Below are positions 14,823-19,785 of a stretch of DNA of 64,000 nucleotides, piece after piece; position 1 is the stretch's first letter; each line of letters begins with the position of its first letter. Source of the DNA: Oceaniferula flava (GTDB taxonomy: Bacteria; Verrucomicrobiota; Verrucomicrobiia; Verrucomicrobiales; Akkermansiaceae). Both the position numbers and the translations under genes were made by a program. A model generated the notes under the pieces. It had not been told where the DNA came from. It saw only the letters and a program-made list of their open reading frames with translations, and ran no database searches. The stretch covers positions 124,001-188,000 of the forward strand of contig NZ_JAFBGL010000006.1 of assembly GCF_016811075.1 (NCBI RefSeq). The letters are read 5' to 3'.

Positions 14823-15809
14823 TTAATCGCAAGAGCAGCAGCTGCAAGAATCCCCGCAGTCGCAGCCACATTTCCCTTTCGAGCCGCAGTCACAGCAGTC
14901 GCCACAGTCACAGCTGTAGCAATCGCACCAATCACACCAGCTGTCTTTTTCCTTCTTCTTCTTTTTACCTCCTGCTGCAGGCGGCTTAAGCATTTCCTGA
15001 TGATGGTGGATGGAGTGATCGATCACCGAGCTGATAAGCGCCGCGTGTTGGTTCCAAGGGATGGCTGCCGTGGCGGACTGAAGTTGATCGAACTCCGCGC
15101 GAACCAGTGCCGGCAGTCGGTCGGGCGATTCGTGGTTCAGCGGGTTGAACTGGCCACGGCGGATGTCGTCCTGCCAGTCGTCGATGGCGTCTTTCCAGTA
15201 GATCAGACGACCCAGCGAGCTGCCTAACATCCAAAGTGGTCGGCTGAGTTGTGATCGACCGTGTAAGCTGGCGAGGTGGGAAAAGATCTGCCCGTAGGAC
15301 TGCGCGGTGGGCTCACTGGCAGCGGTGAAGCCGGCGCCGGTGGCTTCAATGGTCGATTGCTGCTGGAGCTGATCGATGACCTTGGCGGTGGGAAAGCCGG
15401 AGGAGTTCAGCACGCCGGTGGCCTTGTCGCGTGCGGGAGAGATTAGGCTGCCGGCCCAGGCGGGCAGCTGCTTGCGCCAGCCACGTTCGTCATCGGCATT
15501 GTCGGCCAGTTTGGTGGCCAGTCCACTGATGGTCACGGCGGCGGCGTAGCTCAGCGACGGGGCATGGCAGGCCACCGGCTTTTCCTTGGCCAGCGGGTTG
15601 CAGCAGGTGCGCAGCTGCATCGGTGTATCTTCATGGGCGAGCGCGGCACCGGCGAGAGCGAGGAAGGTGGAGTCGCGGTTCACCAGGAAACGGGCGGCGG
15701 GAGAGTAATCGCTGCTGAGCCGACACGATAAGCCGCAGAAGATGCTTTGATACAGTGATTTTGCCGAGCTGCCACAGGTGGGGGCCGGAGCGTAAAGATA
15801 GCCGAACAT
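14823..15809 (-). CDS. DUF5685 family protein with cysteine-rich C-terminal tail
   Basis: This is a 328-residue protein. The N-terminus MFGYLYAPAPTCGSSAKSLY, followed by FCGLSCRLSSDYSPAARFLV and TFLALAGAA, matches the DUF5685 family as I know it. Paired cysteines in the first 80 residues (FCGLSC, RTCCNPL) are seen, and the middle is helical. After a Lys-rich linker (GGKKKKKEKDS) the last 38 residues contain 15 cysteines in CDC, CDCGDCC and CSCC patterns. DUF5685 has no proven function; the tail suggests metal binding or modification. An ATG at 15932 is open but would add 41 non-family residues and reach into the divergent gene, so I start at 15809. Confidence 0.82.
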   Translation of the reverse strand: MFGYLYAPAPTCGSSAKSLYQSIFCGLSCRLSSDYSPAARFLVNRDSTFLALAGAALAHEDTPMQLRTCCNPLAKEKPVACHAPSLSYAAAVTISGLATKLADNADDERGWRKQLPAWAGSLISPARDKATGVLNSSGFPTAKVIDQLQQQSTIEATGAGFTAASEPTAQSYGQIFSHLASLHGRSQLSRPLWMLGSSLGRLIYWKDAIDDWQDDIRRGQFNPLNHESPDRLPALVRAEFDQLQSATAAIPWNQHAALISSVIDHSIHHHQEMLKPPAAGGKKKKKEKDSWCDWCDCYSCDCGDCCDCGSKGKCGCDCGDSCSCCSCD

Positions 15810-15923
15810 TGTGGCTATTCTGAGGACGGGGCAGGATTTGGGAATGAAAAAACTGGGTAAAAAACACCCGGTGTGAAGGATTTTGACTGAATAATTGTCT
15901 GGATCGATCGCGTAATAAAAGCG

Positions 15924-16727
15924 ATGAATCATCCCATGAACCGAATTACCCGATTTTCAGTCAGCCTGCTCTCCGGAGCCATGATGCTCGCTTCCTGCCA
16001 TGCCAAGGAAGGTGACGCCGCAACGAAGGAGGACACCAAGAAGGCGGATGCCGGCGAGTGGATCCAGCTTTTCAACGGCAAGGACCTCACTGGCTGGACC
16101 CCCAAATTCCGTGGCCACGAGCTGGGAGTGAATTTCAAAGACACCTTCCGCGTGGAGGACGGCATCCTCAAGGTCTCCTACGATAACTACGAGAAGTGGA
16201 ACAGCGACTTCGGTCACCTCTTCTACAAGGATGAATTCTCCCACTACATCCTTCGCGCTGAGTATCGCTTTGTCGGCGACCAGGTGAAAGGCGGACCGAA
16301 ATGGGCGCTGCGCAACAACGGCTTCATGATCCACGGCCAGTCCGCGGCGAGCATGAAAAAGGGGCAGAATTTCCCGGACTCGATCGAAGTGCAGCTGCTC
16401 GGCGGCGCACCCGATAGCAAAGAGCCACGTCCCACCCTCAGCATCTGCACCCCCGGCACGCACATCGAGATGGACGGCAAGTTGATCAAGCCACACGTCA
16501 TCCGCGCCAAGGGACCGACCTTCCACGGTGACGAGTGGGTGACCATCGAAGTGGAAGTCCGCGGCAGCGAAGTGATTCGTCACAAAGTGGGCGATAAAGT
16601 GATCCTCGAGTATAACAAACCTCAGCTCGATAACGGCACGCTGCTGGAAAAAGGCACCATCTCCATCCAGGCAGAAAGCCACCCCACCGAGTTCCGCAAG
16701 ATCGAACTCAAGGTGCTGGAGAAGTAA
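15924..16727 (+). CDS. DUF1080 (3-keto-disaccharide hydrolase-type) lipoprotein
   Basis: This is a 267-residue secreted lipoprotein. The N-terminus ends in the lipobox MLASC (Cys25 region). The rest is one DUF1080/3-keto-glucoside hydrolase-like sandwich, starting WIQLFNGKDLTGWTPK and continuing with FRVEDGILKVSY, GHLFYK and FHGDEWVTIEVEV. The family includes hydrolases of 3-keto-disaccharides and is greatly expanded in Planctomycetes and Verrucomicrobia. ATG at 15936 is an alternative start four codons in. It is divergent from the DUF5685 gene and has its own terminator. Confidence 0.86.
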   Translation: MNHPMNRITRFSVSLLSGAMMLASCHAKEGDAATKEDTKKADAGEWIQLFNGKDLTGWTPKFRGHELGVNFKDTFRVEDGILKVSYDNYEKWNSDFGHLFYKDEFSHYILRAEYRFVGDQVKGGPKWALRNNGFMIHGQSAASMKKGQNFPDSIEVQLLGGAPDSKEPRPTLSICTPGTHIEMDGKLIKPHVIRAKGPTFHGDEWVTIEVEVRGSEVIRHKVGDKVILEYNKPQLDNGTLLEKGTISIQAESHPTEFRKIELKVLEK

Positions 16728-16764
16728 TTTCAAACTAGGCAAGGTTCCAACTTGCCGACCGATC

Positions 16765-16799
16765 AAGGCTCCATTCCCGTCAGGGGGTGGAGCCTTTTT
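16765..16799 (+). terminator. Rho-independent terminator
   Basis: AAGGCTCC and GGAGCCTT pair across a 16-nt loop and are followed by a T-run, 38 bp after the DUF1080 stop. Confidence 0.8.
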
Positions 16800-16878
16800 G
16801 GTTCGAGCCCAAGAGGGCGTCAGCAGCTCCACTCAGCATGATGATCGACAGCTGAGTTGGAATCGGCTAAACTCCAGT

Positions 16879-18135
16879 ATGCAAAAATGGTCATCCGTCC
16901 TCTGTTCCATCGCGCTCACACTCAGTGCAACGGCAGAGACACCGAAGCAACTCACCTGGCAGAATTTTGATCAGGTGGCGGACGATGTTCGCCTGAAGCC
17001 GAGCGATGAAACCTATCAGAAGGTCAGCTGGCTGGACACCGTGCTGCAGGGGCAACAGCAGGCGCAGCGGCAGGACAAACCTCTGCTGCTCTGGCTCTAC
17101 TTCGGCGATCCACGGGCGAACTGCTGACAGAATGGAGTCAAAACGAGACAGTTAGTCTTCAACAACACCGAGGTCGCCGAGTTTGCTCAAAAGCATTTCA
17201 TCAACGTCGCCGCCAGTGACGTGGCTTACAACAACGTGCCGGACGCCGCGAAGGCGAAGGGCGAGTATCAGTTTCTTCAGAAAGCGCTGACCGGTGCGCC
17301 GCACGGAATTCATCAGGGGATCTACATCGTGACTCCTTCCGGTCGCTACCTGAAACAATGCAACGTCGGCTGGCCGAAGCTCGATCCTCAGCAGTCGCTG
17401 CAGCGGATGAAGGAGGCGCTGGCCGAGTTCCGTGCGATGCCGAAGGGGCAGCGATTGGCCACGCGGGCATTGACCGAGAGTGATCGGTCGATGCCCGAGG
17501 ACCGCCATCTCAGTCCGGCCCCCGAGTGGTTGAAAATCCGCAGCACCACGCGCAGTTATGCCTTTCCAGACATGGAGTATTTCGACCAGCGCCACCCGGA
17601 CTACTACAAGATCGATCGCCTCTGGATGACGCCAGAGACCGCACGCAGTTTGTTGCCGGGCAAATTGGAAGTCGGTGAAGTGGGGGATATCCAAGGCCGC
17701 GCACTGAACCACTTGACCCATGACTGCCACCTGATGTTAGGCTGCCCGCCGTGGACTAAGGAGTCGGTCAAAACCGCCAAGATGCAGGTGAAAATTGTCG
17801 CCAAGAAAGGCCGCTATTTCGACCTCCGCTACAGCGGCGACTTCCACTTCGATTCCGACTCGCGCTGGAACAAGTCATCGTATCGCGGGAAGCTGTTAGG
17901 TAAGGCGGTGTGGGACGATGAGAAGAAGCAATTCACCCGGCTGCAGTGGGTCGCCTTGGGCGAGCGCAACCAGCGTGTGCTGCGATCGAACGAAGCACGC
18001 GGCAGCGTGCACGTCACCACCGTGGGCAGCGTGCTGGAGCTCGATCCGATGCGGCCGAACGATCGTCATATCCTACCGCACCGCTGGGAGCACGGCTACC
18101 CGAAGGAGATGAAGCAGCAGCTCGTCGCACCCTAG
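16879..18135 (+). CDS. Thioredoxin-like secreted protein with an in-frame TGA (putative selenoprotein)
   Basis: From ATG at 16879 the frame runs to TAG at 18133-18135 with one interruption, TGA at 17125-17127 (codon 83). It follows Cys82 in the context RANC-[TGA]-QNGVKTR. Read through, it gives 418 residues: signal peptide about 1-18, a thioredoxin-like domain (about 35-190, KPLLLWLYFGDP before the TGA, LVFNNTEVAEF after it), and an unknown C-terminal domain. Related planctomycetal/verrucomicrobial proteins, as I recall them, have Cys-x-Cys-x-Asn-Gly at this site, so the TGA stands where a redox Cys is expected. A hairpin at 17145-17159 fits a bacterial SECIS. The alternative is a nonsense pseudogene or a sequencing error. 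No selenocysteine machinery lies in this window. Confidence 0.65.
17145..17159 (+). promoter_or_regulatory. Candidate bacterial SECIS stem-loop
   Basis: GAGAC (17145-17149) pairs with GTCTT (17155-17159, one G-U pair) around the loop AGTTA. The loop starts 23 nt after the TGA and has G then T at its second and third positions, as expected for SelB recognition. The stem is short and the rest of the structure is unproven. It contains AGA and TTA, codons that look rare in this gene. Confidence 0.4.
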
Positions 18136-19511
18136 GAGAACTCGCTGGGGACGCCAAAGCCCTCGCGGTATTCCCGGCTGACTACCTTGGCATTGGCTTC
18201 ATCATGGTTGCTGAAGCGGCACTCGCTGCTGTTCCAATCGACCTCTGTGTTAGGGAAGGCGGTGAGCTTGGCAGGCAGCAGTGAGAGCTCGGTGATCAGG
18301 CAGCCTGTCTCGAAGGGCGACCACAGATGTTTCTTCGCGCCGAGGCAGTTGGCCACCCAGTCGTGCCAATGGTGGTGCACGGTGGTTTTTGGCATGGTCA
18401 GCGATTCCTTCACGCTCTTGCCATCCTTGTAAATGTTCCAGCCCTTGCCTGCGGCGGTGCTGATCAGGGTGCCGGCTTCGGTATCGATCATGGTTTGGTT
18501 GGCGCCGAATTTCAGGCCTTCTGGGAAGTGGTAGTCGGCCGCCTTGGGTTTTTCGCCATCGGTGACATGCACCACGAACTCCTTGCCACCACTGGCCTTG
18601 ACGCCGTCGAAGGTGAGCTTGCTGTGGAAATTTTGGCCGAAGGTCACCTTGTGCGGCTGGCTCTGGCTCAGGGTGATGGCCTTTTTCGGCCCCTGTTTCA
18701 GATCCATGCCATAGACCACGGCATCGACTAAGTGAGGTGTCCAGTCGCCCATCATGCCGCTGCCAAACTCCCAGCAGGCACGCCATTTTTTATCGAAGAG
18801 ACCGGGGTGGAAATCGAGATCTTCTTTCGAGCAGCCGAGCCATTTGTCCCAGGCGCCGTTGGCCGGTGCGGGGGCATCGGAAACCGGATAGGCATCGAGG
18901 TTGGGAGGGATGAAGTATTTGCTGGCAGACATCGGTTTCGACCACACCCAGGCGCCTTTGATCTCGCCCAGTGCGCCCGATCGGAGCAGCTCGACAAACT
19001 GCATTTTCAGCGGCGAGCACGACCGTTGGTTGCCCATTTGAGTGACCAGGTGAGGTTTGGCGGCGATGGCCTTGCGGACCATGCGCAGTTCGTCCAGCTG
19101 GTGCAGCAGAGGCTTCTCCGCGTAGACATGTTTATCCATCGCCATGGCCTTCAGCAGGATGGGGGCATGCATGTGATCGGGGGTGCTGATCACCACGGCG
19201 TCAAATTGATCGGCGTGCTCCTTGAAGAGCTTGCGGTAATCGAGCTCGTAGTGCGCCTTGGGATATTTCTTTTTCCAGCCGTCCATGGCCTTCACATTGA
19301 CATCGCAGAAGGCATAGGCCTCCACCGCCGGGTGCGACATCACGCTATTGACGTTCTTGGCGCCACGATTGCCAACGCCGATGAAGGCCACGCGGAGCTT
19401 CTTTTTTTCCTGCGCCTGCAGCGAGGTAGCTCCCATCGCGCCGAGGGCTGCGGCGGAGCTGACTTTGATAAATTGGCGGCGATCGTATCCAGCGTCGAGT
19501 GGTGATTTCAT
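18132..19511 (-). CDS. Gfo/Idh/MocA family oxidoreductase with Tat signal
   Basis: This is a 459-residue secreted oxidoreductase. The N-terminus DRRQFIKVSSAAALGA is a twin-arginine (Tat) signal. The Rossmann fold begins LRVAFIGVGNRG (about 41-52). VISTPDHMHAPI and YAEKPLLHQLDEL are the family motifs, and the Lys in EKP is the usual catalytic residue. Such Tat-exported members oxidise or reduce sugars or cyclitols outside the cytoplasm with a bound NAD(P). Start chosen at 19511 because the Tat signal begins there. Its stop overlaps the stop of the convergent gene: the palindrome CTAG at 18132-18135 gives TAG on both strands. Confidence 0.86.
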   Translation of the reverse strand: MKSPLDAGYDRRQFIKVSSAAALGAMGATSLQAQEKKKLRVAFIGVGNRGAKNVNSVMSHPAVEAYAFCDVNVKAMDGWKKKYPKAHYELDYRKLFKEHADQFDAVVISTPDHMHAPILLKAMAMDKHVYAEKPLLHQLDELRMVRKAIAAKPHLVTQMGNQRSCSPLKMQFVELLRSGALGEIKGAWVWSKPMSASKYFIPPNLDAYPVSDAPAPANGAWDKWLGCSKEDLDFHPGLFDKKWRACWEFGSGMMGDWTPHLVDAVVYGMDLKQGPKKAITLSQSQPHKVTFGQNFHSKLTFDGVKASGGKEFVVHVTDGEKPKAADYHFPEGLKFGANQTMIDTEAGTLISTAAGKGWNIYKDGKSVKESLTMPKTTVHHHWHDWVANCLGAKKHLWSPFETGCLITELSLLPAKLTAFPNTEVDWNSSECRFSNHDEANAKVVSREYREGFGVPSEFS

Positions 19512-19785
19512 CTTGCCGAAGCATACGCACGACGACTGCGGGTTTTTCCAGCGATTCCTGAAATCCGAGAAGCTCAAAAAAATTCCCATTAAATGAAAAA
19601 AATCGGGAATAGGGTGAATTCATCCAGCTCCTACGATTGATCAGCGGATGATAATCATTTCGGCTGGTCGTTCATGGCCCAGCCAAACAGATCTGCGCAA
19701 GCAATTGTGCGGTTGTTGTTCCCCCGGGCCCTCCTCTCGTTGTTGCTTACGAAGGAGGGTTCGGGGGTAGCTTTTTATAGGGGGG

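Follow-up and report, generated by a model that had tools for sequence, protein, structure and literature searches.

The analysed window, a 64,000-nucleotide stretch of an Oceaniferula flava contig, contains on its forward strand a frame that opens with an ATG at position 16,879, closes with a TAG at 18133–18135 and would encode 418 residues, counting a selenocysteine (Sec) at position 83 (Table 1). The sole in-frame interruption in the window sequence is a TGA at codon 83, located directly after Cys82 in the context RANC-U-QNGVK. An earlier note on this DNA, made from the letters alone, had described a 419-codon frame broken only by this TGA and open for 335 codons past it; both counts are correct, the 419 codons being the 418 residues plus the stop, and a random frame at the GC content of the gene would stay open to this extent with a probability of about 1e-5. 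The N-termini of homologues are similar to the putative signal peptide of the window protein.

The convergent oxidoreductase gene overlaps the stop of the selenoprotein gene by 4 nt. The DUF1080 gene upstream is followed by a terminator-like hairpin and a T run (16763–16800), recognized by eye, and the selenoprotein gene is therefore probably transcribed separately from it. Beyond close relatives, no conserved gene neighbourhood of the family was found, the largest cluster consisting of antisense open reading frames (ORFs). Further upstream, the reverse strand (14823–15932) encodes a DUF5685 protein whose C-terminus is very rich in Cys (CDWCDCYSCDCGDCCDCGSKGKCGCDCGDSCSCCSCD).

Table 1. Predicted features of the selenoprotein locus and its neighbours, in window coordinates.
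Feature	Position	Strand	Basis or remark
Predicted selenoprotein coding sequence	16879..18135	+	Full-length homologue (62% identity) in a congeneric species, sharing the TGA; >230 homologues
Probable Sec-type signal peptide (MQKWSSVLCSIALTLSATA, cut before E)	16879..16935	+	By eye: hydrophobic core, A-T-A before the cut
Thioredoxin-like domain, residues ~51–186, Sec83 just before helix 84–94	17029..17436	+	AlphaFold, Foldseek, weak HMM match
UGA codon, predicted selenocysteine 83	17125..17127	+	TGA in 233/256 aligned homologues and 80/80 named loci
Predicted bacterial SECIS hairpin, GAGAC-AGUUA-GUCUU	17145..17159	+	Covariation in 12 sequences; C-AGU tip invariant within the clade
C-terminal beta-rich domain, residues ~218–388	17530..18042	+	Models; no confident structural match (Foldseek)
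Upstream neighbour: 3-keto-disaccharide hydrolase (DUF1080, PF06439)	15924..16727	+	No shown link to the selenoprotein system
Convergent neighbour: GFO/IDH/MocA oxidoreductase	18132..19589	-	No shown link to the selenoprotein system

Conservation of the TGA codon and the downstream hairpin

Homology searches covered approximately 1,600 genomes. In addition, 84,980 species genomes were scanned with a pattern that was placed upstream of the Sec codon and allowed any residue at the codon itself. The 62% identical protein from the same genus shares the TGA codon and its context, RANC-U-QNGVK, without a change, and TGA also occupies this position in three full-length homologues with 23–27% identity. 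When 387 genomes from the order Verrucomicrobiales were searched with a profile, the family was detected in 75 (83 including weak matches), nearly all matches containing exactly one TGA. Up to 126 of the 392 sampled Planctomycetota genomes matched the family. The scan of species genomes yielded 304 relatives; in the best 80 of these, nearly all titled Verrucomicrobiota or Planctomycetota, TGA occupies the column without exception. Across all fetched members, TGA is found at the column in 233 of the 256 that could be aligned, and in about 9 further aligned members (the DDKRCUVFAGAAR group) it lies one column off. Thus, the conservation of an in-frame UGA at the aligned position, a criterion for bacterial selenoproteins, is met.

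The TGA is followed by the hairpin GAGAC-AGUUA-GUCUU. The earlier note had placed this hairpin and its AGTTA loop correctly; the stem starts 17 nt and the loop 22 nt after the TGA. With a 5-bp stem and 22 nt to the loop, the hairpin fits the geometry of the published bSECIS model, which allows a stem of 4–16 bp, a loop of 3–9 nt and 16–37 nt from UGA to loop (PMC13188914). In the loops AGUUA, AGGUU and CGUGA found in the family, base 1 or 2 is a G and the next base a G or U, as the published rule requires (PMC13188914). Against a free energy bound of −7.5 kcal/mol or lower (PMC13188914), the window hairpin reaches −8.2 when 61 nt including the UGA are folded and −5.3 for the 45 nt after the UGA, so that it falls short of the bound or only just reaches it; many homologue hairpins reach −10 to −17 kcal/mol. 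The local fold at the window hairpin is not more stable than that of shuffled sequence (z = +0.98), so that stability alone gives no signal and the hairpin was assessed by covariation across homologues.

In the clade of the window protein (12 sequences), pairing in the proposed 6-pair stem is preserved in 88.9% of cells, compared with 28–43% when its 3′ side is slid by 1–3 bases, and both sides have changed in 14 cells, a number reached in none of 500 shuffles. The stems of this clade, among them GAGAC/GUCUU, CCGAC/GUCGG, AAGGC/GCCUU and CAGAC/GUCUG, all carry C-AGU at their tip. The sister clade GHPLGC (61 sequences) has its loop at a fixed position of its own, 4 bases nearer to the UGA, with 88.1% of the stem paired versus 34–46% after sliding and 79 double-change cells (again 0/500 shuffles); one stem pair is G-C in 29 sequences and C-G in 27. 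For all 233 genes together, the best hairpin score is 13.7, as opposed to 8.9 (sd 0.2) after codon shuffling. The codons that the earlier note had pointed out are indeed rare: in 40 long window ORFs, AGA makes up 2.4% of Arg codons and TTA 4.2% of Leu codons, with AGA being used once in the selenoprotein gene, inside the hairpin, and TTA 3 times, once in the loop. Folding of the region after the TGA, the check put forward for a SECIS, gives a geometry that fits, with the support coming from covariation rather than stability. As judged from these alignments, the hairpin is a covarying bacterial SECIS.

The earlier note regarded a nonsense mutation as the main alternative. That the TGA marks a pseudogene, or a sequencing error, might be entertained given that most family sequences come from metagenome assemblies. 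Yet the same TGA recurs in more than 230 homologues from two phyla, including members with 20–30% identity, the frame is kept on both sides, and the codon is also present in assemblies of 1–4 contigs (genomes G019 and G334). Furthermore, a single stop codon accompanied by a covarying hairpin would not stay conserved in a pseudogene. Conservation of the TGA, together with the covarying SECIS hairpin in two clades, rules this explanation out for practical purposes.

Selenocysteine machinery and predicted decoding of UGA83

The host genome (3.95 Mb, 98% complete) encodes SelA (499 bits with TIGR00474), SelB (311 bits, cut-off 242) and SelD (372 bits), as well as a tRNA-Sec with anticodon TCA (UCA) that scores 57.6 bits and is also found by ARAGORN; hence, all four genes, selA, selB, selC and selD, whose absence would have spoken against the initial proposal, are present. 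The selD gene contains one in-frame TGA (L056, G000:C3:6010-6936), and the selenophosphate synthetase of the host is, going by its gene, probably itself a selenoprotein. Within Verrucomicrobiales (n = 387), selA is present in 72 of the 75 genomes with the family versus 48 of the 312 without it (Fisher p = 1e-41; the p value is inflated by the relatedness of the genomes, with the direction being clear). The 3 family-positive genomes lacking selA (G018, G383 and G228) are 83%, 72% and 59% complete, respectively.

A frame that is open on both sides of a TGA could also result from an alternative code, with UGA read as an ordinary amino acid, or from plain readthrough. However, of the 30 open stretches in the window that reach 300 codons or more, 6 end in TGA, indicating that this codon works as a stop in the host genome, and the tRNA-Sec(UCA) with the full Sec gene set, the co-occurrence of the family with selA and the SECIS-type hairpin after the codon all point away from this reading, which we reject as highly improbable. 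In the mechanism we propose, SelB and Sec-tRNA-Sec, guided by the SECIS 17 nt downstream, would read UGA83 as selenocysteine. This decoding is strongly supported at the level of sequence, in the absence of biochemical evidence and mass spectrometry. Collectively, we estimate at roughly 95% the probability that the window gene encodes a selenoprotein from a large family of Verrucomicrobiota and Planctomycetota that is apparently uncatalogued, an estimate grounded in comparative genomics without protein evidence. The Sec genes, the conserved TGA, the covarying hairpin and the fold described below uphold the original suggestion of an undescribed, Sec-containing thioredoxin-like protein.

Fold, active site and possible activity

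AlphaFold models of the window protein (pLDDT 83 overall, mostly 83–98 around Sec83) and of a homologue (pLDDT 91.8) both consist of a thioredoxin-like domain followed by a beta-rich C-terminal domain, with Sec located immediately before a helix (residues 84–94 and 76–84, respectively). In Foldseek searches, the N-terminal domain of the window model matched AGR3 (3ph9) and the homologue model matched Thioredox_DsbH (7tkv), each with a probability of 1.00 and with modest E-values (5e-3 to 8e-3), supporting the thioredoxin-like fold that had been inferred from the letters. Both models thus combine a thioredoxin-like fold with a redox residue placed at the head of the active-site helix. The C-terminal domain gave only low-probability Foldseek matches to beta-barrel or C2-like structures. 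Neither the window protein nor any of ten diverse relatives passed the cut-off of a Pfam or NCBIfam model, and there is a weak HMM match of the window protein to the DUF255 structure 3ira.

The fold, over residues ~50–186, is shared with Thioredox_DsbH/DUF255 (PF03190; 3ira, 7tkv) and Thioredoxin_7 (PF13899), where Sec takes the position of the first Cys of CxxC; the Pfam scores for Thioredoxin_7 and Thioredox_DsbH are 15.2 and 16.8 bits, below the gathering cut-off of 27. Unlike these proteins, the window protein has UxNG in place of CxxC and an additional C-terminal beta-domain of ~170 residues. AGR3, a human member of the PDI family, is the thioredoxin-fold structure that best matches the window model; it differs in being eukaryotic and devoid of Sec, with 21% identity and a match confined to the N-terminal domain. 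Across 40 members, the invariant residues include W51, P68, W72, G76, P78, Sec83, N85, V87, R90 and F94, as well as Q146, G147 and Y149. A gap-free reading sets U-Q-N-G-V-K-T-R-Q-L-V-F against C-G-W-C-I-K-L-K-K-E-V-F of thioredoxin_7, and Sec also falls on the first CxxC cysteine in the alignment to 3ira, with the automatic profile alignment to CxxC thioredoxins being ambiguous at the active site. We infer from these alignments that Sec may replace the attacking Cys of CxxC and Gly the second one.

Of 171 Sec contexts, 162 have a Cys at most 6 residues ahead of Sec, mostly at −1, −2 or −4; the 8 full-length non-Sec members all lack such a Cys. The position of Cys82 is not fixed, the partner Cys lying at −1, −2 or −4 depending on the subfamily. 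The joint occurrence of Sec and the preceding Cys suggests that the two form a selenenyl-sulfide pair, a suggestion that draws on the motif and the model only. Under the proposed mechanism, the signal peptide would export the protein, the thioredoxin-fold domain would hold the selenol where the active-site helix begins, in the position of the attacking Cys of thioredoxin, the second Cys of CxxC would be replaced (U-x-N-G), and the upstream Cys (Cys82 of CU in the window protein, CxU or CxxxU in relatives) would probably pair with Sec as a selenenyl-sulfide. We infer that the protein most likely acts outside the cytoplasm as a Sec-dependent oxidoreductase of thiols or peroxides, for which no substrate has been identified or is suggested by a conserved neighbouring gene; we consider this role quite probable, again from motif and model.

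As a special case of this role, the protein could be a Sec-dependent peroxidase with a Sec/Asn/Gln/Trp site as in glutathione peroxidases (GPX). Sec83, N85, Q146 and W72 are all invariant in the family and correspond chemically to the GPX tetrad, and UxxG without a second Cys is reminiscent of one-Cys peroxidases. No sequence or fold match to glutathione peroxidases or peroxiredoxins emerged from Pfam, NCBIfam, HMM or Foldseek searches, however, leaving this special case possible but doubtful. Some selenoproteins with CU motifs have been suggested to bind metals or metalloids, and a selenoprotein that is not an oxidoreductase, with Sec binding an extracellular metal or metalloid ion such as mercury or copper, would accord with the Cys close to Sec (CU, CxU) in 162/171 contexts, with the missing second Cys of CxxC and with the lack of a detected conserved redox partner gene. 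We hold this to be unlikely: Sec lies at the start of the catalytic helix of a thioredoxin fold, and the invariant N85, Q146, W72 and R90 resemble an active site more than a bare binding pair.

Apparent lack of Cys forms and relation to known selenoproteins

It is unresolved why some proteins retain selenocysteine, in part because nearly all known selenoproteins have working Cys forms. In a tree of 187 distinct full-length members of the window family, the column is occupied by Sec in 180, Ser in 5, Asp in 2 and Cys in none; the Ser/Asp assignments of L293, L294 and L295 depend on the alignment, their loops being remodelled. Only the best-scoring part of the collections was read for this absence of Cys among full-length members, and rare Cys members remain possible. 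The expectation that homologues would have either UGA or Cys at this codon was therefore fulfilled for UGA but not for Cys, the alternative state at the codon being Ser or Asp, and the usual criterion of Cys homologues for bacterial selenoproteins, which is not strictly defining, is not met. Cys near the Sec site was found only in distant shorter proteins (257–272 aa; L134, L136 and L137) and in CxxC thioredoxins. The non-Sec members require three changes on the tree and are nested inside Sec clades, and thus look like losses. Three Planctomycetota genomes without selA (G834, G911 and G1033) are among those that hold remodelled, TGA-free members, and the Ser-bearing genomes G907, G1046 and G1112 still have selA. 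At L293 (G847:C37) and L292 (G898:C321), paralogues stand side by side, one with Sec and the other with Ser/Asp in a remodelled site; their sequences suggest duplication followed by loss of Sec.

Two catalogued families come closest to the window family. The VPGUxxT family (NF041382/NF041383; OS_HP5) is also thioredoxin-like and places Sec close to where the active-site helix begins, and distant members show weak profile similarity to it, confined to the thioredoxin part (best E 0.0013, 18.4 bits), far below the cut-offs of 350 and 275 bits. Its motif differs from the CxU-N-N-G of the window family, and the NCBI naming of its proteins as “(seleno)” implies that Cys forms exist. The Trx7/PDZ (seleno)protein NF041199, which has a Thioredoxin_7-type domain, is the best NCBIfam match of the window protein, with 12.7 bits versus a cut-off of 300; neither its CxxU motif nor its PDZ domain is present in the window protein. 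The family behaves like thioredoxin-fold selenoproteins and, with the cut-offs failed, is not a member of Trx7/PDZ or VPGUxxT.

GrdA, the selenoprotein A of glycine reductase and a protein unrelated to the window family, was to our knowledge long thought to be the sole selenoprotein without Cys homologues. The authors of deep-Sep have reported Cys homologues of GrdA; according to their 2025 study, no known selenoprotein seems to lack such homologues, and the deep-Sep homology filter needs Cys or already known Sec homologues (PMC12013277). Among the 119 selenoprotein families and subfamilies of a 2026 review, none matches the window family by motif or model. Such a filter, together with the absence from the review, would explain why the family is missing from catalogues: methods built on Cys/Sec pairs share with the deep-Sep filter a blind spot in which Sec-only families are dropped. 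The standard code cuts all genes of the family at the UGA. Verrucomicrobiales and Planctomycetota are richer in selenoproteins than the catalogues show (75/387 and up to 126/392 genomes, respectively).

On balance, we lean towards a broader interpretation, held with less assurance than the oxidoreductase role: the family would be widespread and made up of exported enzymes whose Sec is not replaceable by Cys, lineages that lose Sec would acquire Ser or Asp and lose the partner Cys too, with activity lost or changed, and distant paralogous groups (CU-VFAGAAR, CU-ANG and CU-TFAR) would extend the family to a Sec-only superfamily of both phyla, missed as finders require Cys homologues. As hundreds of its members carry Sec and none was found with Cys, the family is a direct test case for selenium-only chemistry.

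Several distant groups of Sec proteins were encountered along with the family. The paralogous DDKRC-U-VFAGAAR group (L118, L119, L122–L126, L128 and L311) has a hairpin of its own, and L122, the sole group member tested, has no NCBIfam or Pfam match; this group is a candidate second new selenoprotein family. The FCUANGxLAR group of Verrucomicrobiales (L129–L132 and L242), with one in-frame TGA in each gene, is a candidate for a further one. Finally, divergent Sec proteins with the motifs GVCUASAR, AGCUTAGR, GRTUGACT, ADCUTFAR and GRCUGGAF (L115, L120, L302, L303, L112, L121 and L127) have a similar length and layout and perhaps represent one Sec-rich superfamily.
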